64,000 bases of DNA from Clostridium sp. BNL1100. Lineage in GTDB: Bacteria; Bacillota; Clostridia; Acetivibrionales; DSM-1351. Under the pieces are notes generated by a model that saw only the letters and a program-made list of their open reading frames with translations, had not been told where the DNA came from and searched no databases. The stretch's first letter is position 1; every line of letters starts with the position of its first letter. This document shows, piece after piece, positions 5,779 through 25,345 of this stretch. The position numbers and the translations under genes were made by a program. The stretch lies in NCBI RefSeq assembly GCF_000244875.1, contig NC_016791.1, positions 2,051,001 to 2,115,000 of the forward strand. The letters are read 5' to 3'.

Positions 5779-6288
5779 ATGAGTAAACAGATAAGAATAT
5801 CAGGAATAATCAATGAATCTATTGTTGACGGCCCGGGAATACGAATGGTAATTTTTGCACAAGGCTGTCGACATAATTGTAAGGGTTGTCACAATCCTCA
5901 AACTCATTCCTTTGATGGTGGTGAACTTATTGAGATTGAAGGAATAGTGGAGAAAATACGTAAAAATCCACTCTTGGACGGAGTCACATTCAGCGGTGGA
6001 GAGCCCTTCGAACAGGCAGATACTTTTGCGGTCCTTGCAAAGGAAATTAAAGAACTCGGACTCAACGTTATGGTTTATTCAGGGTACACATTTGAACAGT
6101 TAATTGAGAATTCAAACTACAGAAAAGGCTGGATGGAACTTCTTAATAATACAAAAATACTGGTTGACGGGCCCTTTATACAGGAACAAAAGGATCTTCT
6201 ACTTAAATTCAGAGGTTCAGCAAACCAACGTATTATTGATATTGAAAAAAGTTTGGCAAGTGGTAATATAGAGCTTGCAGATTTGTAA
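5779..6288 (+). CDS. nrdG: Anaerobic RNR-activating radical SAM protein
   Basis: A 169-residue radical S-adenosylmethionine enzyme that generates the glycyl radical on NrdD. The iron-sulfur motif CRHNCKGC (CxxxCxxC) lies near residue 30, within IFAQGCRHNCKGCHNPQTH, and the SAM-binding GG motif is TFSGGEPFEQ. Length fits the NrdG family. The open frame starts 15 codons earlier, but that extension runs through the hairpin at 5732-5761. GGTG precedes the ATG at 5779, which is chosen as start. The gene lies 68 bp after nrdD, forming the standard nrdDG operon. Confidence 0.94.
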   Translation: MSKQIRISGIINESIVDGPGIRMVIFAQGCRHNCKGCHNPQTHSFDGGELIEIEGIVEKIRKNPLLDGVTFSGGEPFEQADTFAVLAKEIKELGLNVMVYSGYTFEQLIENSNYRKGWMELLNNTKILVDGPFIQEQKDLLLKFRGSANQRIIDIEKSLASGNIELADL

Positions 6289-10893: not shown

Positions 10894-11333
10894 AATAAAA
10901 TTCCTCCCCATTCAGTAAACATGTTACACAAGTTTTATGTCATTTATTCATAGCATAAACAGCATCAAAAATAGAAGTAACAAAAGCTGATACTCCTTAA
11001 AATAATAAATATTGCATTTACACAATTTAGAAAGAAAGATTTAAGTTTGAAAAACAGATATGAAGTACATCATAGAATCAACCCCCGTTCTCATTCCCTA
11101 ATGGGATATAAGTCGAATTAAATGTAATTAATAAAAACATGTCTGGTTTCATAATGAATACCAGCTAATAAGATATGATACCATATAAGAAAAACCAGTG
11201 CAATCTTTAAAAATGAGTAATTATTATTTTTTGGGAAAAATAGAGGCAATAGTCAACTTTATATACAAAACAAGGGCTTAATGTGCTAGTATTAAGTTAA
11301 GTGATTTTATGAATGAAAGGAGTAGAGTGAAAA
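10894..11333. other. Divergent intergenic region, 440 bp
   Basis: AT-rich spacer between the reverse-strand OPT gene and the forward NYN gene; it must hold both promoters. I see no convincing -35/-10 pair, conserved RNA or ORF with a ribosome binding site. AAAGGAG lies just before the NYN start. Confidence 0.5.
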
Positions 11334-14698: not shown

Positions 14699-15208
14699 AT
14701 GCTGGAATATTTGATTGTAGGACAATTGGTAAATACCCATGGTGTAAAGGGCGAACTAAAGGCAACAGCCCAAACTGATGATCCTCAGAGGTTTAAAAAA
14801 CTAAAATGGGTTTATATAGATAAAAATGGCAGTCTTGAAAAGTACAATATAAGCGGTGTTAAATTTTTTAAGCAGTTTGTTATAATAAAATTTGAGGGCA
14901 TAGACAGTATTGAAGAAGCTGAAAAGCTGAAGGGCTTTTACATTAAAGTGGACAGGGCAAATGCTGTAAAGCTTCCTAAAAACTCATTTTTTATAACAGA
15001 TATTATCGGCCTGAAGGTTTATGACGAAAACAATCAGCTTCTTGGAGAATTAAAGGATGTAATACAGACAGGCAGTAATGATGTATATGTTGTAAGAGAT
15101 TCTGAATCAAAAGAAATTCTCATACCTGCACTAAAGAGTGTCGTGAAAGAAATTTCCATTGAAGAAGGAAAAATTTCAGTTATATTACCGAAAGGACTGC
15201 TTGATTAA
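14699..15208 (+). CDS. rimM: 16S rRNA processing/ribosome maturation factor RimM
   Basis: A 169-residue factor for maturation of the 30S head. It has an N-terminal beta-barrel domain starting with the family signature LIVGQLVNTHGVKGELKA, and a C-terminal PRC-barrel (FFITDIIGLKVYDENNQ and DVYVVRDSESKEILIPAL). Length is normal. An AAGGTGA site precedes the ATG. Its stop codon overlaps the trmD start (TAATG), so the two are translationally coupled. Confidence 0.96.
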   Translation: MLEYLIVGQLVNTHGVKGELKATAQTDDPQRFKKLKWVYIDKNGSLEKYNISGVKFFKQFVIIKFEGIDSIEEAEKLKGFYIKVDRANAVKLPKNSFFITDIIGLKVYDENNQLLGELKDVIQTGSNDVYVVRDSESKEILIPALKSVVKEISIEEGKISVILPKGLLD

Positions 15209-15897
15209 TGAAATTTGACGTACTGACGCTGTTTCCAGAATTATTTGTTAGCGTGATGGGAGAAAGCATTATCGGGCGTGCCCAGAAAAACGGCCTTGTT
15301 GAAATAAATGCGGTAAATATCAGAGATTATTCAAAAGACAAGCATAAGAAAGTGGACGACTATCCTTTTGGCGGAGGCAATGGAATGGTAATGATGTGCC
15401 AGCCTGTTATTGATGCCTACAAAGCCATAACAGAAGGAAGGGAGCAAAAGCCTAAAGTACTATACATGAGTCCACAGGGAAAAGTATTAACTCAGGAAAT
15501 GGCCAAAGAGCTTTCAACCCAAGAACATCTTATTCTTTTGTGCGGACACTATGAAGGTATAGATGAACGCATAATAGAAGAAATAGTTGACGAAGAAATT
15601 TCTATTGGAGATTATGTACTGACAGGCGGCGAGCTGCCGGCTATGGTACTTATTGATTGCGTAAGCAGGCTTATCCCGGGAGTATTGTCAACGGAAGGCT
15701 CTTTCAGTGACGAGTCACATTTCAATGGATTACTGGAATATCCTCAGTATACAAGGCCTGCAGATTACAATGGAAATAAAGTTCCTGACGTATTATTGTC
15801 AGGACATCATGCAAATATAGAGAAATGGCGAATGCAGCAGTCATTGGATAGAACCAGGGAAAAGAGACCTGATTTATATGAGAAATTTAAAAAATAA
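15208..15897 (+). CDS. trmD: tRNA (guanine-N1)-methyltransferase TrmD
   Basis: A 229-residue SPOUT methyltransferase that makes m1G37 in tRNAs and prevents frameshifting. The deep trefoil-knot SAM site is visible: LYMSPQGKVL, LLCGHYEGIDERI and EISIGDYVLTGGELPAMVLID. The C-terminal tRNA-binding helices include LLSGHHANIEKWR. It overlaps rimM by one base. In most Firmicutes rplS follows directly; here about 9.4 kb of other genes lie between trmD and rplS. Confidence 0.97.
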   Translation: MKFDVLTLFPELFVSVMGESIIGRAQKNGLVEINAVNIRDYSKDKHKKVDDYPFGGGNGMVMMCQPVIDAYKAITEGREQKPKVLYMSPQGKVLTQEMAKELSTQEHLILLCGHYEGIDERIIEEIVDEEISIGDYVLTGGELPAMVLIDCVSRLIPGVLSTEGSFSDESHFNGLLEYPQYTRPADYNGNKVPDVLLSGHHANIEKWRMQQSLDRTREKRPDLYEKFKK

Positions 15898-15914
15898 TAT
15901 AATGAAATATATAG

Positions 15915-15945
15915 GCATTCCTTATAATTAAGAGGAGTGCTTTTT
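15915..15945 (+). terminator. Terminator after trmD
   Basis: GCATTCCT (15915-15922) pairs with AGGAGTGC (15933-15940, one wobble), followed by TTTTT. It closes the ffh-trmD operon just before the accessory block. Confidence 0.8.
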
Positions 15946-15968
15946 GTTTGAATAATTTGATATAACTA

Positions 15969-15997
15969 TTGACAAATAATTCAAGTCGTAATATACT
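15969..15997 (+). promoter_or_regulatory. Strong promoter of the YezD/nitrogenase-like block
   Basis: TTGACA (15969-15974), a 17-base spacer and TATACT (15992-15997) form a near-consensus housekeeping promoter. It is followed by an AT-rich leader of about 80 nt to the small gene at 16082. No operator is recognised with confidence. Confidence 0.8.
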
Positions 15998-16081
15998 ATC
16001 AATAACATATCAAACATATATGAATTATAATTTTACTAGGATTTATTATTTTTAAAAGAAATAAAAAAAGGTGGTGCTATT

Positions 16082-16252
16082 ATGAGTCAACAACAGCAAA
16101 GTATTGAGCAATTGAAAGTACCAATCTCAGAACAAGATATCCAAAAGCTATATGATATGGCCAAATCTCTAAGGTATGGCTCAATCACTCTGGTTTTTCA
16201 GGATGGAAATCTGATACAACTGGAAAAAAATGAAAAGGTCAGGGTAAAATAA
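16082..16252 (+). CDS. YezD-family (DUF2292) small protein
   Basis: A 56-residue protein beginning MSQQQQSIEQLKVPIS, with the family core LRYGSITLVFQDGNLIQLEKNEKVR. That core matches DUF2292/YezD small proteins, which in Bacillus and relatives are commonly found near sulfur-assimilation genes. Function is unknown. GGTGG precedes the ATG by nine bases, and the strong promoter at 15969 drives it. A terminator-like hairpin separates it from the NifB-like gene, so it may be expressed more than the genes behind it. Its presence supports a sulfur-related role for the operon. Confidence 0.75.
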   Translation: MSQQQQSIEQLKVPISEQDIQKLYDMAKSLRYGSITLVFQDGNLIQLEKNEKVRVK

Positions 16253-16315
16253 TAGAATAATTTTTCTTACATACTTATTTTTAATGATATAGATTTAGTT
16301 GACTAAAAAAATTAG

Positions 16316-16357
16316 AGGCTAAGTTAAAACCATTGTTGGTTTTGCTTGGCTTTTTTT
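16316..16357 (+). terminator. Terminator/attenuator between yezD-like and nifB-like genes
   Basis: AGGCTAAG and AAAACCA (16326-16332) pair with TGGTTTT (16337-16343) and CTTGGCTT, followed by a T run. The stem is about 15 bp with two wobbles. Because the nitrogenase-like genes lie directly behind it, it is either partly read through or a regulated attenuator. I see no clear promoter in the short remaining gap. Confidence 0.75.
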
Positions 16358-16387
16358 ATTGTATATAAACATAAAGGGGGCGGCACT

Positions 16388-17296
16388 ATGACAAACTGCT
16401 GCAAGGTTGAAATTGAAGAAATTCAAACTGATCAAAAATTTAATCATCTTTTGGGAAAACACCCGTGTTTTAGTGCAAGGGCACATTTTAAATACGGAAG
16501 AATACATTTGCCTGTTAGTCCTACATGTAACATTCAGTGTAAATTTTGCAAAAGATGTATAAATAAAATTGAAAACAGACCGGGTGTTGCAGCAAAAGTA
16601 CTTACGCCCAAGGAAGCGATTAAAATAGTAGCTAAAGCTTTGGAACTTTGTCCTGAAATAAGCGTGGTGGGTATTGCAGGCCCCGGAGAAACACTTGCTA
16701 CAGCTGATGCTCTTGAGACTTTTGAAATGTTGAACACTGAATACCCTGATTTAATTAAATGCCTTAGTACAAACGGTCTTATGCTTGACAAATACTCCGA
16801 GAGAATTATTAATGCAGGTATAAAAATGGTGTCGGTTACAGTAAATGCTGTGGAGCCGGAAATTCTGCAGAATATCTGTTCAGGAATATTTTGGAATGGC
16901 AGTTATTTAAATGGCTATGAGGGGGCTGAAAAGCTCATACAAGAACAAATAAAGGGGATAGAAAAACTGAGCGGTAAAGGCATAGCAGTAAAGGTAAATA
17001 CTGTACTGATACCGGACTTAAATTACGAGCATATCGAAGAAATTGCACGGGTGGTCTTGAAAGCCGGGGCATCCATTATAAATATAATTCCACTTATTCC
17101 GCAGCATGAAATGAAAAGTTTCAGACCACCTGATTGCAATGAATTGAACAATGCCAGAGAGTGGGCAGGAAAATACCTGAATGTTTTCAGACATTGCAGG
17201 CAATGCAGGGCAGATGCATGTGGCATTCCGGGTAAGGGCAAGGAGCTTGGAAATCTACTCTATGATTTTCCCATGGAAACCTTTTCACATGGCTAA
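16388..17296 (+). CDS. NifB-like radical SAM protein (cofactor core synthase)
   Basis: A 302-residue radical SAM protein. The N terminus HPCFSARAHFKYGRIHLPVSP followed by CNIQCKFCKRC and ENRPGV closely follows NifB. The SAM-cluster cysteines are C47, C51 and C54, with a further C57. GIAGPGETLA is the SAM-binding region, and CRQCRADACGIPGKG near the C terminus matches the NifB tail. NifB builds the carbide-centred Fe8S9 precursor of nitrogenase cofactors. This copy lacks the fused NifX domain of long NifB proteins, but a separate NifX-like gene follows after 28 bp. GGGGGCGG precedes ATG 16388. The function is inferred from homology and from the adjacent NifHDK-like genes. Confidence 0.88.
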   Translation: MTNCCKVEIEEIQTDQKFNHLLGKHPCFSARAHFKYGRIHLPVSPTCNIQCKFCKRCINKIENRPGVAAKVLTPKEAIKIVAKALELCPEISVVGIAGPGETLATADALETFEMLNTEYPDLIKCLSTNGLMLDKYSERIINAGIKMVSVTVNAVEPEILQNICSGIFWNGSYLNGYEGAEKLIQEQIKGIEKLSGKGIAVKVNTVLIPDLNYEHIEEIARVVLKAGASIINIIPLIPQHEMKSFRPPDCNELNNAREWAGKYLNVFRHCRQCRADACGIPGKGKELGNLLYDFPMETFSHG

Positions 17297-17324
17297 TGAG
17301 TAAACAACTAATCAGGAGGCTAAT

Positions 17325-17672
17325 ATGGCTTATAAAATAGCAATAGCCAGCAGTGACGGTAAGGTGGTAAATCAGCATTTCGGCCACTGCAGGCAGTTTT
17401 TGATATTTGAGAATGATGAAACGGGTAGATGGAAGTTTGTTGAAAGAAGAAACACGTTTCCTGCTTGCAAAGCGGGAGAGCATAGTGAAGCATCCATGCA
17501 GTATGTTGTCACACTACTTGAAGACTGTAAAGCTGTGGCCGCTGCGCAAATAGGTTTAGGCGCCGTTCAGGCTCTGACGTTGGCGCAAATAAGGGCCTTT
17601 TGTGCTGTAGGTCTTATAGAACAGGTTCTTGAAAAAGTTAATGAAACTTTAAATATAAAGACAGAAAGCTAA
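17325..17672 (+). CDS. NifX/NafY-like cofactor-binding protein
   Basis: A 115-residue protein of the dinitrogenase iron-molybdenum cofactor biosynthesis family (NifX, NafY, C-terminal NifB domain). The family start is KIAIASSDGKVVNQHFGHC, followed by FLIFENDETGRWKFVERR and a C-terminal region with AAAQIGLGAVQAL. Such proteins carry or store metal clusters between NifB and their target. AGGAGG precedes the ATG. It lies 28 bp after the nifB-like gene and 16 bp before the nifH-like gene, so these are surely one transcript. Confidence 0.85.
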   Translation: MAYKIAIASSDGKVVNQHFGHCRQFLIFENDETGRWKFVERRNTFPACKAGEHSEASMQYVVTLLEDCKAVAAAQIGLGAVQALTLAQIRAFCAVGLIEQVLEKVNETLNIKTES

Positions 17673-17688
17673 TATTGGGAGGTTAAAA

Positions 17689-18567
17689 ATGGCTAAAAAA
17701 ATCAAACAAATTGCAATTTATGGTAAAGGGGGCATTGGCAAATCAACTACAACTTCAAATATAAGTGCCGCTCTTTCGGCAGCAGGATACAAAGTAATGC
17801 AGTTTGGTTGCGACCCCAAGAGTGATTCAACAAATACACTGAGGGGCGGAAACTACATCCCCACAGTTTTAGACACTCTTAGAGAAAAAAACACAGTAAA
17901 GGCCCACGAAGTTATTTTTGAAGGATTTAACGGTATTTACTGCGTAGAGGCAGGCGGCCCGGCTCCGGGCGTGGGATGTGCAGGAAGAGGTATTATTACA
18001 GCGGTTCAGCTGTTCAAACAGCAGAATATTTTTGAAGAGCTTGATTTGGATTTTGTTATATATGATGTTCTTGGAGATGTTGTTTGCGGTGGGTTCGCCG
18101 TTCCAATAAGAGAAGGAATTGCGGAACATGTTTTCACGGTTTCATCGGCTGATTTTATGGCAGTTTACGCTGCTAACAACCTTTTTAAGGGAATACATAA
18201 GTATTCCAATTCAGGGGGAGCCTTACTTGGCGGTGTCATAGCAAATTCTATAAATGCACCTTATGCAAAGGATATTATCGACGATTTTGCAAAACAGACT
18301 CATACACAGGTAGTTGAATATGTACCAAGGTCGGTAACAGTTACTCAAAGTGAATTACAAGGAAAAACCACCATTGAGGCTGCCCCTGACTCACAACAGG
18401 CAAAAATATATAAAGCTTTAGCTGCAAAAATTGCAGGACACGAGGAGTCAAAGGTACCATCACCACTGGATGTGAAGGAACTAAGAAATTGGGCTGCAAG
18501 ATGGGGTGATTATTTGCTGGCTCTTGAAACAGGTGAAATCAGAACGGTTGCAGCAGGAAATCTATAA
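17689..18567 (+). CDS. NifH-like ATP-dependent reductase (Fe protein)
   Basis: A 292-residue Fe-protein homologue. The P-loop is YGKGGIGKSTTTSN (residues 11-24) and the switch region is GCDPKSDSTNTL. C97 (GVGCAGRGI) and C133 (DVLGDVVCGGFAVPIR) are the two ligands that share one 4Fe-4S cluster across the dimer. R100 matches the arginine used for ADP-ribosylation in nitrogenase Fe proteins. The sequence differs from true NifH in many places (for example FGCDPKSDSTNTLRGG) and looks like a nitrogenase-like group. It would pass electrons with ATP hydrolysis to the NifDK-like complex encoded next. GGGAGG precedes the ATG; the gap to the next gene is 18 bp. Confidence 0.9.
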   Translation: MAKKIKQIAIYGKGGIGKSTTTSNISAALSAAGYKVMQFGCDPKSDSTNTLRGGNYIPTVLDTLREKNTVKAHEVIFEGFNGIYCVEAGGPAPGVGCAGRGIITAVQLFKQQNIFEELDLDFVIYDVLGDVVCGGFAVPIREGIAEHVFTVSSADFMAVYAANNLFKGIHKYSNSGGALLGGVIANSINAPYAKDIIDDFAKQTHTQVVEYVPRSVTVTQSELQGKTTIEAAPDSQQAKIYKALAAKIAGHEESKVPSPLDVKELRNWAARWGDYLLALETGEIRTVAAGNL

Positions 18568-18585
18568 TAAAGGAGACTGGAAAAA

Positions 18586-20067
18586 TTGAGCAACATAAAT
18601 ATGAAAAGCCCGGAGGTTCAGATAAGAGAGGTGCGGTTAGGTTCCATAACAGGCTTTGAAGGAACTGCCGGGGAGCTTGTAAGGTGTGCCAGAGCAGGTA
18701 ATTTGCAGGATAAATCAAGAAGCTTCAGTCAGTGTATGGGCTGCAGCTCCAGAAATGCATTCTGCCAACTGTCAATGATAAAAGATGCAGTTGTTATTAA
18801 TCATGCACCAGTAGGTTGCTCGGGGGATTTTTTTGGTTTCAATTTCACGTACCGGGTAGGGCAGATGGAAAGAAATCTGCCTCCTGCAATAGGCAGATAC
18901 TTTAATACAAATATCGAAGAAAAGGATACTATTTTCGGAGCTACCCAAAAGCTTGAAGCAACTATAAGGGAGGTATATACAAGGCTTAAACCAAATGCTG
19001 TTTTTATAACTACCTCCTGTGCCTCTTCCATCATAGGGGATGATGTAGAGTCAGTTGCCAACAATTTGACTGATGAACTTGGAATTCCCATAGTAGCTTG
19101 TTTCTGCGAAGGGTTCCGGTCTAAAATATGGACTACGGGTTTTGATTCTGCCTACCATTCTATAGTACGTAAAATAGTAAAACCACCTAGAAAAAAGAGT
19201 AATAAGGTAAACATAATCAACTTCTGGGGTTCTCATATTTTTGACGAGCTTTTAAAGCCCTTGGGCTACGAACCCAACTATATAGTACCGTTTTCAACTA
19301 TTGCCGATTTGGAATACATATCGGAGGCAGCTGCAACTATTCAGATATGCCCTACTCTGGGAACTTATTTCGGGGCTGCTTTAGAGGAGATATACGGGGT
19401 ACCTGAAATTAAGGCACCTCCGGCATATGGTATTAGCGGTACTGACCAGTGGATGAGAGAATTGGGTAAGGTACTGGATAGACAGGAAGAAGTAGAAAAA
19501 ATAATCGTCAAAGAGCATATAAGAGTTATTCTCAAGCTTGAAGAATACAGGGATAAGTTAAAGGGTAAAACAGCTTACGTTACAGCAGGAGCATCCCACG
19601 GTCATGCTTTGATTGCTCTCTTAAGAGAGCTTGGTTTATCTGTACAGGGGGCTGCCATATTTCACCATGACCCTGTTTATGATAATGGTGAGCCTGATTC
19701 TGACACTCTGCTACATACAATAAACACATATGGTGATGTGCATAATTACAATGTCTGCAATAAGCAGGCTTTTGAACTTGTAAATATTTTAAACAGGATG
19801 AGGCCGGATATTATGATTGCAAGGCATGGGGGAATGACGCTCTGGGGGGCAAAGCTGGGAATACCTACATTACTCATAGGAGATGAACAATTTGGCTTCG
19901 GATATCAGGGGGTTCTTAATTATGCTGAAAGAATATTAGAAACACTTGATAACAGAGAATTTGTTTCAAATTTAGCAAAGTACAGCTCAATGCCATATAC
20001 AAAATGGTGGCTTGACCAGAACCCATTTTCATTTCTCGGAGGTAATGTACATGTTGAAGTTTATTGA
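18586..20067 (+). CDS. NifD-like catalytic subunit of a nitrogenase-like reductase
   Basis: A 493-residue nitrogenase component 1 family protein. C50/C53 (SQCMGCSS), C78 (APVGCSG) and C145 (TTSCASSIIGDD) fall where NifD holds its P-cluster ligands. C255, in QICPTLGTYFGAALEEIYG, aligns with the NifD cysteine that binds the FeMo-cofactor. The segment that carries the cofactor histidine in NifD (MHSWDY) is replaced here by LIGDEQFGFGYQG, with no histidine. This argues for an iron-sulfur cofactor held differently and against nitrogen fixation. The TTG start at 18586 follows AAAGGAG. The gene overlaps the nifK-like gene by 17 bp. Confidence 0.87.
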   Translation: MSNINMKSPEVQIREVRLGSITGFEGTAGELVRCARAGNLQDKSRSFSQCMGCSSRNAFCQLSMIKDAVVINHAPVGCSGDFFGFNFTYRVGQMERNLPPAIGRYFNTNIEEKDTIFGATQKLEATIREVYTRLKPNAVFITTSCASSIIGDDVESVANNLTDELGIPIVACFCEGFRSKIWTTGFDSAYHSIVRKIVKPPRKKSNKVNIINFWGSHIFDELLKPLGYEPNYIVPFSTIADLEYISEAAATIQICPTLGTYFGAALEEIYGVPEIKAPPAYGISGTDQWMRELGKVLDRQEEVEKIIVKEHIRVILKLEEYRDKLKGKTAYVTAGASHGHALIALLRELGLSVQGAAIFHHDPVYDNGEPDSDTLLHTINTYGDVHNYNVCNKQAFELVNILNRMRPDIMIARHGGMTLWGAKLGIPTLLIGDEQFGFGYQGVLNYAERILETLDNREFVSNLAKYSSMPYTKWWLDQNPFSFLGGNVHVEVY

Positions 20068-21367
20068 ACAGCCAAGATATTCTTGTGCCATAGGAGCTCA
20101 GCAGACAGTTGTTGCCATCAAAAGAGGTGTTCCCATTTTGCATGCCGGCCCGGGCTGCAGTGCCAAGGTAAGCGATATAATTGGCCAAGGAGAAGGCTAT
20201 GCAGGAGGAAATAACATTCCATGTACAAATACCGGTGAAGCAGATGTGGTATACGGTGGAGAAGAAAGGCTGAGAAATGTAATTGACGGAGCATTAAAGG
20301 TAATGGACGGTGATCTGTATGTTGTACTTACAGGATGTACCTCTGATATTGTTGGTGACGATGTGGGGAGAGTTACGGCAGAGTACCAACAGCAGGGAAA
20401 GCCTATAGTATTTGCTGAAACAGGAGGTTTTAAGAGCAATAATTATGTAAGTCATGAAGTAGTAGTAAATGCAATAATTGACCAGTATGTGGATATCAAT
20501 TATAAAGGGGAAAAGACCCAAAAAAATCTGGTAAATGTTTTTGCAACGGTTCCTTATCAGGACCCATACTGGAATGGCAATCTTGAAGAACTCAAAAGAA
20601 TCCTTGAAGGTATAGGCCTTAAAGTAAATATACTTTTCGGAAATGAATCCAACGGAGTTAGTGAATGGAAAACAATTCCTCAGGCGGAATTTAATATACT
20701 TGCAGGTGCTTGGACGGGCCTTGGAATAGTAAAGCATCTGGAAGAAAAATACGGGACACCCTATTTGCATTTTCCGTATCTTCCTATCGGGGGTATAGAG
20801 ACAACAAGATTCTTACGAGATGTTGCGGAATTTGGGAATCTTGATAAGACAAAGGCAGAGGCCTTTATAAAAAGTGAAGAAGAAAAATACTATTCATTTA
20901 TTGAAAGAACAGCTGATTTTATGCTGGAATTCAGGTATGGCCTTCCAAGGAGGTTCTATACCATACTTGATGCATCATATTCTTTGGGTTTCTCAAAGTT
21001 TCTACTCAATGAGCTTGGAATAATTCCTGCAAAGCAATTTATTATTGATGATACTCCCGAAATATACAGAAAACAGATTGAACAACAGTTTTTAAAAATA
21101 TCTGACTTTAGGACTTCATCAGTAGCATTTTCAATAGACGGGGGCGAAATTCAGAAGGAAATCAGGCAGGAACAACAGAAAAACAGAGCTTTGATTTTGG
21201 GAAGCGGATGGGACAGAGATTTGGCAAACGACATAAAAGCTGATCTCCTTATTGTCAGTGCACCTGTTACATACCGTCTGATTCTGAATTGCGGTTATGC
21301 AGGTTACAGAGGAGGCCTCAGGGCAATTGAGGACATATATGACAGAGTTTTAAACACATACAGGTAA
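20051..21367 (+). CDS. NifK-like subunit of a nitrogenase-like reductase
   Basis: A 438-residue nitrogenase component 1 homologue that would pair with the NifD-like protein. C12 (RYSCAIGAQ), C36 (AGPGCSAK) and C96 (LTGCTSDIVGDDV) sit at the three P-cluster positions of NifK; C58 is extra. GGAGGT at 20038-20043, inside the end of the nifD-like gene, places the start at ATG 20051 with seven-base spacing. A longer frame from 20012 lacks such a site. The 17-bp overlap implies translational coupling for 1:1 assembly. No nifE, nifN or nifV lies in the block. Confidence 0.87.
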   Translation: MLKFIEQPRYSCAIGAQQTVVAIKRGVPILHAGPGCSAKVSDIIGQGEGYAGGNNIPCTNTGEADVVYGGEERLRNVIDGALKVMDGDLYVVLTGCTSDIVGDDVGRVTAEYQQQGKPIVFAETGGFKSNNYVSHEVVVNAIIDQYVDINYKGEKTQKNLVNVFATVPYQDPYWNGNLEELKRILEGIGLKVNILFGNESNGVSEWKTIPQAEFNILAGAWTGLGIVKHLEEKYGTPYLHFPYLPIGGIETTRFLRDVAEFGNLDKTKAEAFIKSEEEKYYSFIERTADFMLEFRYGLPRRFYTILDASYSLGFSKFLLNELGIIPAKQFIIDDTPEIYRKQIEQQFLKISDFRTSSVAFSIDGGEIQKEIRQEQQKNRALILGSGWDRDLANDIKADLLIVSAPVTYRLILNCGYAGYRGGLRAIEDIYDRVLNTYR

Positions 21368-21405
21368 GGTATTTAATTAATGAAACATCTAAAGGGGGAT
21401 TTAAT

Positions 21406-22587
21406 ATGGAAAGCGACATGATAACAGAAGCGGACATGCAGAGCTTAATTAGTACGTTGGTAATACATGGAGGGACAGACGGAGATGAAAGGACCGGTGC
21501 CGTAAGTGTACCCATATATCAGACATCAACATACAGACAGAAGGAGCTCGGTGTACATAGCGGGTATGAATATTCAAGAACGGGTAACCCTACTAGGGAA
21601 TCCTTGGAAATACTTATAAATGAACTGGAAGGTGGAACGACAGGTTTGGCCTTCGCCTCAGGAATGGCAGCTATAACCGCAGTATTAATGCTTCTTAAAA
21701 GCGGTGATAGTGTTATCATACCCAGTAATATCTACGGCGGGACCTTCAGAGTACTTGACAAGATTTTTAAAAATTTCAATATAGAATATGAGATAGTAGA
21801 TACATCTGACTTGGTAGAGGTAGAAAAACGGATTAATCAAAAGGTGAAGGCAGTACTAATAGAAAGTCCTGCAAATCCTCTGCTTACAATAACAGATATA
21901 AGAGGTATTTCAGAAATCGCCCACAGACACGGGGCTCTGGTTATAGTTGATAATACCTTTATGACTCCTTATCTGCAAAGGCCAATTAAACTGGGTGCGG
22001 ACATAGTGCTGCACAGTGCCACAAAATATCTGGGAGGACACAGTGACGTAATTGCGGGGCTGGTTGTAGCAAAGGATAAAGCCACAGGGGAACGTTTAAA
22101 GTTCATACAGAATGCCACAGGTGGTGTCCTCTCTCCATTTGATTCGTGGCTCCTTATTAGAGGAGTAAAGACGCTGACAGTGCGTATGGATAGACATATT
22201 GAGAATGCCCGGTATTTAGTTGAATTTCTGAAAAACCATGCCGGAGTCACAAAAATATATTATCCGGGGCTATCTGAAAATGAGGGGTATTCAGTTCATA
22301 AAAAGCAGTCTTATGGCCCGGGAGCAATGATTTCCTTTGTATTATCAGATGATTATGATATAAAGGAATTTTTCAGAAATATAAAAGTAATAACCCTTGG
22401 TGAAAGCCTGGGCGGAGTCGAATCTCTGGTTAGCCATCCGGCTAGTATGACTCATGCTTCCATTCCTTATGAGGTAAGACAGAAGGTGGGAATCGTAGAC
22501 AACCTTATAAGACTATCTGTTGGGATTGAAGACAAGGAGACACTTATAAACGATCTTGAAAATGCTTTTAAAAAAGCTGGAAAGTGA
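21406..22587 (+). CDS. Cys/Met-metabolism PLP enzyme (MccB/MetB-like cystathionine lyase or synthase)
   Basis: A 393-residue fold-type I pyridoxal-phosphate enzyme. Landmarks are YEYSRTGNPTRESLE, GLAFASGMAAITAVLMLL, the cofactor lysine in LHSATKYLGGHSD and GGVESLVSHPASMTH. This family includes cystathionine gamma-lyase (MccB), cystathionine gamma-synthase and O-acetylhomoserine sulfhydrylase, which cannot be told apart with certainty by eye. The MccA-like gene directly behind it favours reverse transsulfuration (homocysteine to cysteine). The gene lies 38 bp after the nifK-like gene with GGGGGA before its ATG, so it probably shares the transcript. Confidence 0.88.
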   Translation: MESDMITEADMQSLISTLVIHGGTDGDERTGAVSVPIYQTSTYRQKELGVHSGYEYSRTGNPTRESLEILINELEGGTTGLAFASGMAAITAVLMLLKSGDSVIIPSNIYGGTFRVLDKIFKNFNIEYEIVDTSDLVEVEKRINQKVKAVLIESPANPLLTITDIRGISEIAHRHGALVIVDNTFMTPYLQRPIKLGADIVLHSATKYLGGHSDVIAGLVVAKDKATGERLKFIQNATGGVLSPFDSWLLIRGVKTLTVRMDRHIENARYLVEFLKNHAGVTKIYYPGLSENEGYSVHKKQSYGPGAMISFVLSDDYDIKEFFRNIKVITLGESLGGVESLVSHPASMTHASIPYEVRQKVGIVDNLIRLSVGIEDKETLINDLENAFKKAGK

Positions 22588-22595
22588 GGTTGTTT

Positions 22596-23504
22596 ATGAG
22601 ATATTATAATGATATTCGAGAGCTTATAGGTGGAACACCTCTTCTAAAACTTAATCATTCTGATATAAAGGAAAATGTAAATACTTATGCAAAATTGGAG
22701 CTATTTAATCCCGGCGGCAGCGTAAAAGACAGAATGGGAGTTGCACTTATAGAAGATGCAGAGAACAAAGGAATTTTACAAAAAGGTTATACAATTGTAG
22801 AAGCTACAGCCGGAAATGCCGGTATTGGTATAGCTTTAGCTGCATTAAACAAAGGATACAGGATTCTTTTTGCAGTTCCAGAGAAATTTTCACATGAAAA
22901 ATTGGTTATAATGGAGGCTTTAGGAGCTGAAATAATACATACTCCCCTTGAAAAGGGAATGAACGGTGCGTTTGAAAAAGTAGAGGAACTGCTGGCAGAG
23001 GTAAAGAATTCTGTATGCCTTAGCCAGTTTACCAATCCGGTAAATCCAAAGATTCACTATGAAACTACAGGACCTGAAATATACAATGATCTTGACGGAA
23101 AGATAGACTATGTAGTAGCCGGAGCAGGTAGTGGAGGTACAATATCAGGAGTAATGAAGTACTTGAAGGAACAGAATAGAAACATAAAGGGGATACTGGC
23201 TGATCCGGTTGGTTCCACAATGGGCGGAGGATTACCCGGATGTTATTCAATAGAAGGAATAGGAAATACGTTTATGCCTGAAACCATGGACTGTTCACTC
23301 ATTGATGAAGTAATAAAAGTCAATGACAGTCAGGCACTTGAACAGGTGAAACTCCTTGCTAAGCAAGAGGGTTTGCTTGTAGGAACTTCTTCAGGAGCTG
23401 CAATGTATGCTGCAAGAGTAATTGCGCAAAGAGTGGAACATGCAAGTGTGGTAGTAATTTTTCCTGATAGGGGAGACAGGTACATAAGTAAAAATATTTT
23501 TTAA
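22596..23504 (+). CDS. MccA/CysK-like PLP synthase (cystathionine beta-synthase or cysteine synthase)
   Basis: A 302-residue fold-type II PLP enzyme. The PLP lysine lies in NPGGSVKDRMG, the phosphate-binding loop is GAGSGGTISG, and the substrate loop is EATAGNAGIG. CysK proteins usually have EPTSGNTGIG there; the changed loop is closer to MccA (YrhA), the O-acetylserine-dependent cystathionine beta-synthase of B. subtilis. With the MccB-like enzyme it would turn homocysteine into cysteine. GTGAGG precedes ATG 22596; a GTG at 22584 in frame overlaps the previous stop and is rejected. It ends the operon at a strong terminator. Confidence 0.87.
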   Translation: MRYYNDIRELIGGTPLLKLNHSDIKENVNTYAKLELFNPGGSVKDRMGVALIEDAENKGILQKGYTIVEATAGNAGIGIALAALNKGYRILFAVPEKFSHEKLVIMEALGAEIIHTPLEKGMNGAFEKVEELLAEVKNSVCLSQFTNPVNPKIHYETTGPEIYNDLDGKIDYVVAGAGSGGTISGVMKYLKEQNRNIKGILADPVGSTMGGGLPGCYSIEGIGNTFMPETMDCSLIDEVIKVNDSQALEQVKLLAKQEGLLVGTSSGAAMYAARVIAQRVEHASVVVIFPDRGDRYISKNIF

Positions 23505-23526
23505 ATCTAACGTTTACACCCTCCAC

Positions 23527-23567
23527 AAAAAGGGGTATACACGGTTGTAAACCATATACCCCTTTTT
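23527..23567. terminator. Terminator of the nitrogenase-like operon
   Basis: AAAAAGGGGTATA (23527-23539) and its exact complement (23555-23567) form a 13-bp stem that ends in T's. A second small stem (GGTT/AACC) lies in the loop. It can work in both directions. Confidence 0.9.
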
Positions 23568-23604
23568 GAGATTTTTATTATTAAGAATCAAATTTAAGAC
23601 TCAA

Positions 23605-23633
23605 TTGACAATTACTGATATGCCTTGTATAAT
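23605..23633 (+). promoter_or_regulatory. Consensus promoter of the RsgA-like leader unit
   Basis: A perfect TTGACA (23605-23610), a 17-base spacer and a perfect TATAAT (23628-23633). It starts a ~360-nt leader that holds a tiny ORF and two terminators before the first gene of length. Confidence 0.9.
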
Positions 23634-23673
23634 TGGAAATGTACGGATAATAAGTATGAAAGGAGTTGTTTTA

Positions 23674-23709
23674 ATGTCTGTAAAAAATGTTGAGGTGTTT
23701 TTCTATTAA
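23674..23709 (+). CDS. 11-residue leader peptide
   Basis: ATG at 23674 encodes MSVKNVEVFFY and stops at 23707-23709. AAAGGAG lies upstream at good spacing, and the promoter is about 40 nt before. So short a translated ORF ahead of tandem terminators is the layout of ribosome-mediated attenuators, where stalling on the leader ORF changes RNA folding. I infer a regulatory role; the peptide itself is probably not functional. Confidence 0.65.
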   Translation: MSVKNVEVFFY

Positions 23710-23828
23710 TTAAATACTGGCACAGGTATATATTCAAGGGCCTTTTTATAAAATTAAGGTTTAATTGATTTTACCGTGCAGCTTCTTTCGAGCAACCTAT
23801 ATCGTGTATATATGCAGTTATGTGCCGG

Positions 23829-23919
23829 CACGCATTTAAGTAGCGTGTTTTTTTATTACATTTTTTGCATTATTAAATCGCTTTTATACCCGCAGGTGGT
23901 CGTTATCTGCGGGTTTTTT
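23829..23919 (+). terminator. Two tandem terminators in the RsgA-like leader
   Basis: The first stem is CACGC (23829-23833) with GCGTG (23843-23847), then seven T's. The second is CCCGCAG (23889-23895) with CTGCGGG (23907-23913), then six T's. GGCACA near 23719, just after the leader ORF, can pair with TGTGCC at 23821-23826, next to the first terminator. That pairing is a possible switch. Confidence 0.75.
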
Positions 23920-23995
23920 GCGTGCTTTTTAGAGTTGTGAAAAAGTAAGATGGGAAAATAAATTTATTGAAAAATTCAAAAATGGAGTGATGATA

Positions 23996-24145
23996 ATGGC
24001 AAAAAAGAAAACTACTTTTGATTATATGAGAGAAATACGTGGAAGCTGGGTTATAAATCCCAGAACCAGAGTTCAGGAAAACAATATGAGAAATAAAAAG
24101 AAGAGAAGGCAGGAAGAAAAGAAAATAATAAAGGATGGGTACTAA
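23996..24145 (+). CDS. 49-residue basic protein of unknown function
   Basis: Starts MAKKKTTFDYMREIRGSW and continues VINPRTRVQENNMRNKKKRR, then ends in a lysine/glutamate-rich tail. It is very basic and has no membrane segment. GGAGTGATGATA precedes the ATG, and its stop codon abuts the ATG of the RsgA-like gene, so the two are translationally coupled. The lysine/arginine-rich composition and the partner gene suggest binding to rRNA or the ribosome, but this is inference; I do not recognise a named family. Confidence 0.7.
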   Translation: MAKKKTTFDYMREIRGSWVINPRTRVQENNMRNKKKRRQEEKKIIKDGY

Positions 24146-25201
24146 ATGAATATAAATGAATATGGCTGGGACGATTATTTCGAGAGTGAATGGAACAAAA
24201 TGCCCACAAAAGACATGTATCCGGCAAGAATAATAGCAGACTACGGGCAAATGTTGAGAGTTGTTACTGACAAGGGAGAGCTATGTGTCAACAGACCCTT
24301 GAATAAAGATAATAATTATTTACAGCTTGCCGTGGGTGACTGGGTCGGCCTTGAAGAAATTGAAGCTGCGGAATATCCGGTGATACGCTTTGCACTTTCA
24401 AGAAAGACAAAGTTTTCAAGGGCTGCTGTAGGTTTTGAAGCAAAGGAGCAGATAGTTGCCGCAAATGTTGATACGGTTTTCCTTATACAGTCATTAAACA
24501 GGGATTTCAACATGAAACGTCTGGAAAGATACCTTATAGCAGCCTGGGATAGTGGAGCCATGCCTGTTGTTGTACTTACCAAGGCTGACTGCTGTGATGA
24601 CATACCACAGAAGATGGCTATTGCAGCGGCCTCTGCGCCGGGTGTTGAAGTAATCAGTATAAGTAGTAAGACGGGAGAAGGGTTGGAAGAAATAAAAAAA
24701 TTTCTGACACCCGGGAAAACAATAGCTTTGCTGGGTTCATCAGGAGTGGGTAAATCAACACTTTTAAATACACTGGCAGGTAAAGAGCTTCTAAAAACAC
24801 ATGAGGTACGGGAAGACGACAGCAGGGGCAGACACACCACAACCCACAGGGAACTGGTGCTTTTGCCAGAAGGTGGAATACTTATGGATACGCCGGGAAT
24901 GAGAACCCTTTCGCTATGGGAGTCCGAAACGGGTATGGAAATAATGTTCGGGGACGTGGAAAAACTGACAGGCCAATGTCGGTTTTATGACTGTAAACAC
25001 CAAAATGAACCGGGGTGTGCTGTCAGATTCGCCCTGGAATCTGGGGAACTTGACATTACCAGATGGGAAAGCTGGCTTAAACTGCAAAAGGAAATGGCAC
25101 ACCTTGAGGCTAAAAAAGAGGGGAAGCTGAGATTGCAGGAAAAGCAGTGGGGACGACAGATTTCAAAGCTTCAGAAGGAATTCCGAAAAGGAAGGGGTTG
25201 A
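24146..25201 (+). CDS. rsgA: RsgA-family circularly permuted ribosomal GTPase
   Basis: A 351-residue GTPase of the RsgA/YjeQ family, which works late in 30S subunit assembly. An N-terminal OB-fold (to ~residue 90) precedes a permuted G domain in the order G4 (TKAD, 145-148), G1 (GSSGVGKST, 197-205) and G3 (DTPG, 248-251). A zinc site follows with C278, C283, H285 and C291. It is longer than the usual ~290-300 aa RsgA, so it may be a second, paralogous copy. No separate SD gap exists: the GGATGGG site lies in the end of the preceding small gene. The attenuator-like leader upstream suggests induction under translation stress. Confidence 0.88.
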   Translation: MNINEYGWDDYFESEWNKMPTKDMYPARIIADYGQMLRVVTDKGELCVNRPLNKDNNYLQLAVGDWVGLEEIEAAEYPVIRFALSRKTKFSRAAVGFEAKEQIVAANVDTVFLIQSLNRDFNMKRLERYLIAAWDSGAMPVVVLTKADCCDDIPQKMAIAAASAPGVEVISISSKTGEGLEEIKKFLTPGKTIALLGSSGVGKSTLLNTLAGKELLKTHEVREDDSRGRHTTTHRELVLLPEGGILMDTPGMRTLSLWESETGMEIMFGDVEKLTGQCRFYDCKHQNEPGCAVRFALESGELDITRWESWLKLQKEMAHLEAKKEGKLRLQEKQWGRQISKLQKEFRKGRG

Positions 25202-25246
25202 CAATAATTTTGGTCTAAACTAAATATTTTGATTTAGAATTTTTAC

Positions 25247-25282: not shown

Positions 25283-25345
25283 CGTGTGTAATACGGATGG
25301 TCCTCTGCACTTATGATGCACGAACATCTAGGAGAGGAAGGAGGA
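25283..25345 (+). ncRNA. Candidate L19 (rplS) leader RNA
   Basis: Between the promoter and rplS lies a compact fold: CCTCT (about 25301) pairs with GGAGAGG (about 25331), and TGCA pairs with TGCA inside it. Position and size fit the L19 leader motif described upstream of rplS in Bacillus-type bacteria, which allows L19 to control its own synthesis. I have not matched it to a covariance model. Confidence 0.5.

Follow-up and report, generated by a model that had tools for sequence, protein, structure and literature searches.

A nitrogenase-like operon with cysteine and homocysteine genes in Clostridium sp. BNL1100: a probable relative of methylthio-alkane reductase

Composition of the operon

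The 64,000-nucleotide stretch of DNA analysed here (the window) corresponds to positions 2051001-2115000 of the genome of Clostridium sp. BNL1100, a bacterium that degrades plant material; the genome is a single contig of 4.61 Mb, and positions given below for genes of the operon are those of the window. Its main subject is an operon of eight genes located on one strand, yezD, nifB, nifX, H, D, K, mccB and mccA, which spans 16082-23504 and combines the components of a nitrogenase-like reductase with enzymes of sulfur amino acid metabolism. The D protein is 97% identical to that of Ruminiclostridium papyrosolvens C7 (L040) and, judged by this identity, the genome is a Ruminiclostridium genome. 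The features of the operon are as follows:

15969..15997, + strand: promoter-like site TTGACA-17-TATACT, 11/12 consensus positions
16001..16023, + strand: conserved 23-bp element AATAACATATCAAACATATATGA, directly 3' of the -10 sequence; candidate operator
16082..16252, + strand: YezD-like DUF2292 small protein (Pfam 54.3 bits, cut-off 22)
16388..17296, + strand: NifB/MarB-like radical SAM enzyme (TIGR01290 273 bits, below the 343.65 cut-off)
17325..17672, + strand: NifX-like protein (Nitro_FeMo-Co 71 bits, cut-off 26.3; TIGR02663 nifX 42 bits, below 112)
17689..18567, + strand: Fe protein H, MarH-like reductase component (TIGR01287 414 bits, cut-off 394.35)
18586..20067, + strand: catalytic alpha subunit D (PF00148 270 bits, cut-off 28.6)
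20048..21367, + strand: catalytic beta subunit K, kin of MarK (PF00148 208 bits, cut-off 28.6)
21406..22587, + strand: MccB-like cystathionine gamma-lyase (best NCBIfam model PRK07671, 554 bits, below the 594 cut-off)
22584..23504, + strand: MccA-like protein of the cysteine/cystathionine beta-synthase family (TIGR01136 337 bits, below 344.15)
about 23526-23568, + strand: intrinsic terminator hairpin with a T-rich tail, which closes the operon block

The list of open reading frames and the family matches confirm the eight genes, their order and their common strand as described in the initial annotation, and a promoter-like site and a hairpin are indeed found at the two ends of the block, although the scan that gave the promoter-like site does not list the hairpin. 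The absence of nifE, nifN and nifV from the operon block, also claimed there, holds as well. The gaps between genes are small, as had been noted; however, there are two overlaps rather than one, at 20048-20067 between D and K (including the ATG start of K) and at 22584-22587 between mccB and mccA (including the GTG start of mccA). The "fusion" to mccBA described earlier is an arrangement of co-directed genes in the same block and not a gene fusion. All eight genes would form one transcript.

The operon NifB scores 62 bits with Radical_SAM, over the cut-off of that model, and matches the NifB model across 268 residues, though under its cut-off. Its sequence contains the motifs CxxxCxxC, HPC, ENRPG, AGPG and CxxCRADACG. 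At 414 bits H passes the NCBI nifH cut-off; this model does not separate H proteins of the present clade from NifH. The remaining MccB family members found in the genome match the operon MccB at no more than 44% identity.

Relation of the D and K subunits to Mar and nitrogenase

The methylthio-alkane reductase (Mar) of Rhodospirillum rubrum is the closest solved homologue of H, D and K, in agreement with its earlier designation as the nearest characterised system. The best PDB chains are 9fmg/9d9u both for D (472 bits; the next 135) and for K (439 bits; the next 72), and 9fmg_D for H (501 bits; the next, a nitrogenase Fe protein, 289). According to the text of the structural report, the 9FMG complex of R. 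rubrum Mar contains a P-cluster and an [Fe8S9C] cluster bound by Cys270 and His429, Arg428-His429 is proposed as a possible hallmark of Mar, and His194, Trp195 and His375 are named near the S2B site (PMC12552129). The same text states that Mar did not reduce 15N2, that nitrogenase Gln191 and His195 are missing in Mar, and that this could account for its not reducing N2 (PMC12552129).

Residues of D are numbered below as in the Mar paper; eight chain positions were checked, and all agree with the paper or the alignment. In the clade that contains the window protein (the window clade), all 43 D rows keep C66, C73, Q74, C91, C158, W195, F199, C270, H375, H376, R428 and H429, which include both Mar cluster ligands and Arg428; Met occurs at position 74 in four deeper rows (L018, L019, L020, L065_943). 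In these proteins, Trp195 and Phe199 occupy the positions of nitrogenase Gln191 and His195. C66, C91 and C158 were assigned as P-cluster cysteines from the alignment, and Cys 13, 37 and 97 of K are conserved in 54/54 rows (48 distinct), which makes the set of six complete. There are also differences from Mar. Position 194 is His in 11/11 Mar rows and in 0/43 window-clade rows, where it is Ile (37), Leu (3), Val (2) or Gly (1), and it is Val in the four deeper rows. An extra Cys59 is present in all 54 window-clade K rows, and R. rubrum MarK has Ser there.

These residues also bear on the suggestion that the operon encodes an isethionate reductase (Isr), which would likewise be a nitrogenase-like BHDK operon for organic sulfur, and sulfonate-type importer genes do lie near some relatives. 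However, the text on Isr reports that IsrD has one of the three P-cluster cysteines and neither cofactor ligand, whereas the window D keeps all of them, and that IsrB shares only the radical SAM motif with NifB, unlike the window protein with its sub-threshold match over 268 residues (PMC11423573). We regard an Isr identity as the least credible of the explanations considered here. The operon does not fit F430 synthesis by CfbCD, a system with H and D and no K, in that it has K and its H reaches 355 bits against a CfbC cut-off of 402.

Trees were constructed for D and K, from sets without CfbD, Bch, Isr, Anf and Endomicrobium proavitum sequences. From 108 D rows found, near-duplicate and partial loci were dropped; 92 rows, including those of the window and R. 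rubrum, were aligned, and 89 were placed in a quick tree. The quick K tree contained 83 rows. Both quick trees carried long-branch warnings, and the D tree was repeated carefully with 46 of the 89 rows. In the careful tree, the window clade and the Mar clade each have support of 100/100 and are grouped as sisters with 94/89, while NifD and NifE lie across a long branch from both; the window D clade is probably the sister of Mar. In the quick K tree, the support is 92 for the window clade and 99 for Mar. Window D and K are located outside the Mar clade in both the D and the K trees, and they group neither with NifD/NifE nor with NifK. A position of H, D and K inside the true nitrogenases had been named beforehand as evidence that would speak against a role in sulfur chemistry; D and K, for which the comparison was made, both fall outside, which does not contradict the proposal. 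Two more D/K sets, "inter" and "far" (the latter not one clade), branch between the window and Mar clades and Nif.

The tree and the active-site residues agree that this is not a usual nitrogenase. A molybdenum nitrogenase NifHDK was rejected because Gln191 and His195 are replaced by Trp and Phe, D and K lie outside NifD/NifE and NifK, and nifEN and nifV are found only in a separate nif cluster. As a side observation, a further D/K group (D of L045_6575, L047_3709, L062_1729 and L099_2481) occurs in the same loci as window-clade genes; its D proteins keep Cys66, 91, 158 and 270 and have Asp or Glu at the positions of Mar His375 and His429.

Gene neighbourhoods, natural variants and the 23-bp element

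A scan of named genomes revealed 49 window-clade loci with 60-97% identity. Their hosts include Ruminiclostridium, Clostridium, Sporomusa, Paenibacillus, Heliophilum, Syntrophomonas, Coriobacteriales, rumen Clostridia and others, and a relative on a Chloroflexota plasmid is 71% identical. Within the class, matches at E <= 1e-150 were found in 16 of 391 genomes drawn from it, the window genome included. The neighbourhood of a locus comprised 4-22 kb of DNA, in which genes of Cys/Met enzymes were counted above 150 bits and importer genes above 80 bits; the loci from the rumen include many near-copies, and a number of the contigs are short.

A gene of Cys/Met metabolism is present in 36/49 clade loci (MetY in 31, MccB in 11, MccA in 5, CysK in 4, and a CBS-type gene in 2), and either such a gene or a MetI/MetQ or SsuA/SsuC-type importer gene is present in 42/49. 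On the strand of D, an enzyme gene lies within 7 kb in 30 loci and within 2 kb in 18. Four further clade loci (L099, L116-L118) have an enzyme gene in three cases and an enzyme or importer gene in all four. By comparison, none of the eight nif control loci, from the same genome and clostridial relatives, has a Cys/Met gene or an importer gene. The neighbourhood survey thus upholds the sulfur-chemistry setting suggested earlier from the single locus. In the plasmid of Candidatus Chlorohelix (L099), an O-acetylhomoserine sulfhydrylase gene lies between two nitrogenase-like clusters, and its nifH and nifB are annotated with the note "nitrogen fixation".

The narrower claim that released sulfur is turned into cysteine by MccBA did not fare as well, since MetY is the usual partner across the clade and natural variants separate mccBA from the reductase. 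In one sister species (G009, locus L136), the promoter, yezD and mccBA are the same, and nothing matches window positions 16818-21335: nifB is truncated after codon 156, nifX, H, D and K are absent, and the junction lies at about 7682 of L136. MccB of this genome has 393 residues, as in the window, and its search for NifH-family proteins gives one match at E <= 1e-40. The retention of mccBA suggests that these genes are useful independently of the reductase, and the tie to reverse transsulfuration is therefore loose.

The flanking genes of the operon, which we take from their translations to be trmD-like (15208-15897), rsgA-like (24146-25201) and rplS-like (at 25297), help to describe a second variant. 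In G002 (L137), there is no match to window positions 15887-25235, and the flanking matches are about 20 bases apart (about 5910-5930). At this empty site the trmD side joins the rplS side directly, and both the operon and the rsgA-like gene are missing. Together with the deletion in G009, this indicates an island-like behaviour of the block, from which the mccBA part can be separated. Neither G002 nor G009 has a D match at E <= 1e-60.

A nif cluster (L009) is located 0.88 Mb from the operon in the same genome. In the family search its H reaches 465 bits (cut-off 394), D 650 (cut-off 653.55), K 418 (cut-off 427) and E 618 (cut-off 505). It also contains a fused nifN-B, whose nifB part reaches 407 bits (cut-off 344), and the molybdate-binding ModA (215 bits, cut-off 62.5). 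Two proteins of partial length in the cluster resemble homocitrate synthase, with NifV model scores of 290 and 123 bits (cut-off 463).

This bears on the possibility that the operon encodes a group IV-A nitrogenase fixing N2 without NifEN, as predicted for NflDK1 of Heliophilum fasciatum and reported for E. proavitum. The order of D, K and H at L052 corresponds to the consecutive gene numbers of Heliophilum NflDK1 and NflH, and together with the overlapping contig region this match to the gene numbers in the text of the paper places NflDK1 in the window clade (PMC9147875). In the same text, NflDK1 is grouped with the NfaDK proteins of E. proavitum and Paenibacillus riograndensis (PMC9147875), and another paper calls the group IV enzyme of Endomicrobia a functional nitrogenase. 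On the other hand, the Trp and Phe that replace nitrogenase Gln191 and His195 are those of Mar, for which no 15N2 reduction is reported, the cluster histidine sits in the Mar-type loop, and the clade D/K are surrounded by sulfur genes while a separate nif cluster is found in the window genome. Moreover, nifHDK-like genes of Paenibacillus sabinae, possible members of the clade, are reported not to complement nif mutants. Nitrogen fixation by this enzyme is therefore considered very improbable, and the residues and sulfur neighbours described above argue against the N2 fixation predicted for NflDK1.

A MarDK pair that groups with R. rubrum Mar is encoded at about 2291-2294 kb of the window genome (L008), 0.22 Mb from the operon. 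Such a pair is carried by 7/11 genomes of the genus, and all seven have a window-clade D (83-100% identity). No H or NifB was found within the 18-20 kb around MarDK in 5/5 loci examined (L008, L119-L122). In the window genome, two proteins of the NifH family score above 270 bits, and the strong homologues of NifB number two, namely the operon NifB and the nifN-B fusion. Since MarDK has no H or NifB nearby in these loci and accompanies a window-clade D in all seven genomes, the operon H and NifB probably serve both pairs. Divergent Mar-like pairs are present in G003 and G007, and that of G003 (L139) is adjoined by H and NifB. The genome G004 has an unusually large nitrogenase-like D/K set, with 28 PF00148 matches including pieces.

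The co-occurrence with MarDK in the genus and the linkage to NifB and NifX might also indicate that the window D/K function as an assembly scaffold of the NifEN type for the MarDK pair and not as an enzyme. However, the six P-cluster cysteines are all kept, as are the two cluster ligands. According to the text of the Mar report, active Mar was obtained from MarH, D, K and B in a Rhodobacter capsulatus strain whose nifD and anfHDGK had been disrupted (PMC12552129), so no such partner was supplied. We consider a scaffold role hardly probable, less so even than nitrogen fixation.

The promoter-like site at 15969 is conserved in L040, L136, L041 and L042, although such sites are about equally common in shuffled sequence (37 found, 31.9 expected). 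The adjacent 23-bp element fits a one-N consensus exactly in the window, L040, L041, L042 (the latter two from one species), L086 and L136, and is conserved although much of the surrounding region has diverged. Its 20-bp core occurs as a single exact copy in the window genome, at the operon. A regulon was rejected: with up to three mismatches the core has 23 sites versus 20 for the reversed control, without genome-wide enrichment. One of these sites, at 4304962, lies upstream of a second MccA/CysK-like gene (match from 4305152) and is a post hoc lead.

The palindromic form of the element was searched in the clade, Mar, other Nfl and nif loci, with expectations from first-order Markov shuffles. 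Allowing up to five mismatches, six sites were found in 6/53 clade loci (0.7 expected) and one in seven Mar-clade loci (0.1 expected), with none in seven other Nfl loci (0.1 expected) or eight nif loci (0.0 expected). With up to six mismatches, the clade has 18 sites (4.4 expected) and the nif loci one (0.9 expected). Four of the six sites are yezD promoters of the genus; the other two precede D (L116) and MccB (L117). Because the consensus was derived from some of the same loci and the sites are mostly yezD promoters of the genus, this enrichment is weak.

Riboswitch control of the operon was rejected, since the single Rfam match that the window contains at the gathering threshold is a pan RNA motif at 11082-11167 on the - strand, and there is none before the operon. 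Downstream of the terminator, the region 23605-23914 (+) contains a perfect promoter-like site (12/12), followed by about 250 bases in which no reading frame reaches 60 aa and then by a strong terminator hairpin; it is a candidate small RNA or leader. It lies in the stretch 23514-24150, which is conserved in L040 (92%) and L136 (86%) and has no Rfam match at the gathering threshold. A 52-aa reading frame at 23987-24145 (+) is located in the same stretch, just 5' of the rsgA-like gene.

Possible function and comparison with known systems

The explanation that we favour, with a probability of roughly 0.77, is that the operon encodes an ATP-driven [Fe8S9C] carbon–sulfur (C–S) reductase of the Mar type that scavenges sulfur by cutting a small organosulfur compound. 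NifB would make the [Fe8S9C] precursor and, with NifX as the probable carrier, build the cluster without Mo or homocitrate. In D, this cluster would be held by Cys on one side and by the histidine of the Arg-His loop on the other; a P-cluster would lie where D and K meet, and H would supply electrons with ATP hydrolysis. The D/K complex would then cleave the C–S bond reductively, and the freed thiol or sulfide would be taken up by Cys/Met enzymes, MccB and MccA here and MetY or CysK elsewhere. What has been observed directly is which genes are present, their homology, the conserved residues, the position in the trees and the neighbourhood; the identity of the cluster, the cleavage, the flow of sulfur and the sharing of H and NifB are deduced from these.

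Several facts weigh against this explanation. The support of the sister node (94/89) is just under the star of the tool; in the quick K tree, the fork joining the window and Mar clades with a Treponema K is open; and the Treponema D (L100_11995), a member of the Mar group in the quick tree, is not among the rows of the careful tree. In the DNA examined, 13/49 clade loci have no Cys/Met gene, many but not all of them on short contigs. Among the Mar-clade loci, 2/7 have a Cys/Met gene and 0/7 an importer gene, so even for Mar-type enzymes what can be read from the neighbourhood is limited. G009 retains mccBA although nifX, H, D and K and the larger part of nifB have been lost, and the window-clade D frame of G010 has two stops. 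Finally, 15N2 uptake is reported for E. proavitum, whose NfaDK is said to share a clade with a window-clade member, and the explanation does not account for this uptake. The kinship of the window clade with E. proavitum NfaDK is indirect, through Heliophilum NflDK1 in the published clade as the text describes it (PMC9147875).

The operon might simply encode a second Mar acting on the substrates of Mar (dimethyl sulfide, ethyl methyl sulfide, methylthioethanol), with methanethiol passing to methionine and then to cysteine by MccA and MccB. The identical cofactor ligands, the neighbouring tree position and the thiol-using MetY as the commonest Cys/Met neighbour are in accordance with it. But the same genome has a MarDK pair of the R. 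rubrum clade, which suggests a division of labour, and the His194 of all Mar rows is absent from the window clade; we consider a second Mar of this kind unlikely, though less so than nitrogen fixation. Since its D/K form a neighbouring clade with a changed pocket, the window clade probably has a substrate different from that of Mar. D/K most likely work like Mar; nevertheless, we do not file them as Mar because two tested features fail, membership in the Mar clade and His194.

A more specific version of the favoured explanation proposes a second family of [Fe8S9C] C–S reductases, formed by the window clade, with its own substrate, which would not be a methylthio-alkane (thioether amino acids imported from plant matter are an example). 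In Ruminiclostridium, the same H/NifB module would serve both this family and a separate MarDK. We offer it tentatively, giving it somewhat less than even odds. If it is correct, Heliophilum NflDK1 and perhaps other "group IV-A nitrogenases" scavenge sulfur instead of fixing N2. This would be a second kind of enzyme using a large nitrogenase-type cluster to cut C–S bonds and an undescribed source of sulfur for anaerobes of soil, rumen and plant-fibre habitats. The published prediction of heliobacterial N2 fixation by an enzyme of this clade thereby becomes directly testable. Caution is in any case required in scoring such genes as nitrogen fixation, given that H passes the NCBI nifH cut-off and the Chlorohelix plasmid genes are so annotated. 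A description of the window clade with mccBA or MetY was not found in a literature search that extended neither to figures nor to most subscription papers; Figure 3A of the Heliophilum paper might depict genes of this kind, and an earlier notice is possible.

Among known systems, Mar of R. rubrum (MarBHDK, PDB 9FMG, PMC12552129) shares with the operon H, D, K and a NifB-type maturase, together with the named cluster ligands, Arg428-His429, Trp195, Phe199 and His375. The operon differs from Mar in that its D belongs to a separate, probably sister, clade, has His194 replaced and lacks a short N-terminal stretch found in MarD; in addition, it contains NifX, YezD and mccBA, and its K has Cys59 in place of Ser. 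NflDK1 of H. fasciatum group IV lies in the window clade, with a D 76% identical, but the text of that paper predicts N2 fixation, whereas a sulfur role is argued here (PMC9147875). Isr of R. capsulatus (IsrBHDK) shares the nitrogenase-like BHDK operon for organic sulfur and differs, as its description reports, in an IsrD without the cofactor ligands and two P-cluster cysteines and in an IsrB unlike NifB (PMC11423573). The pair of MccB and MccA is shared with the mccAB reverse transsulfuration genes of Bacillus subtilis. Clostridial ubiG-mccBA is a further known setting of these genes; here, they are located behind a nitrogenase-like reductase.

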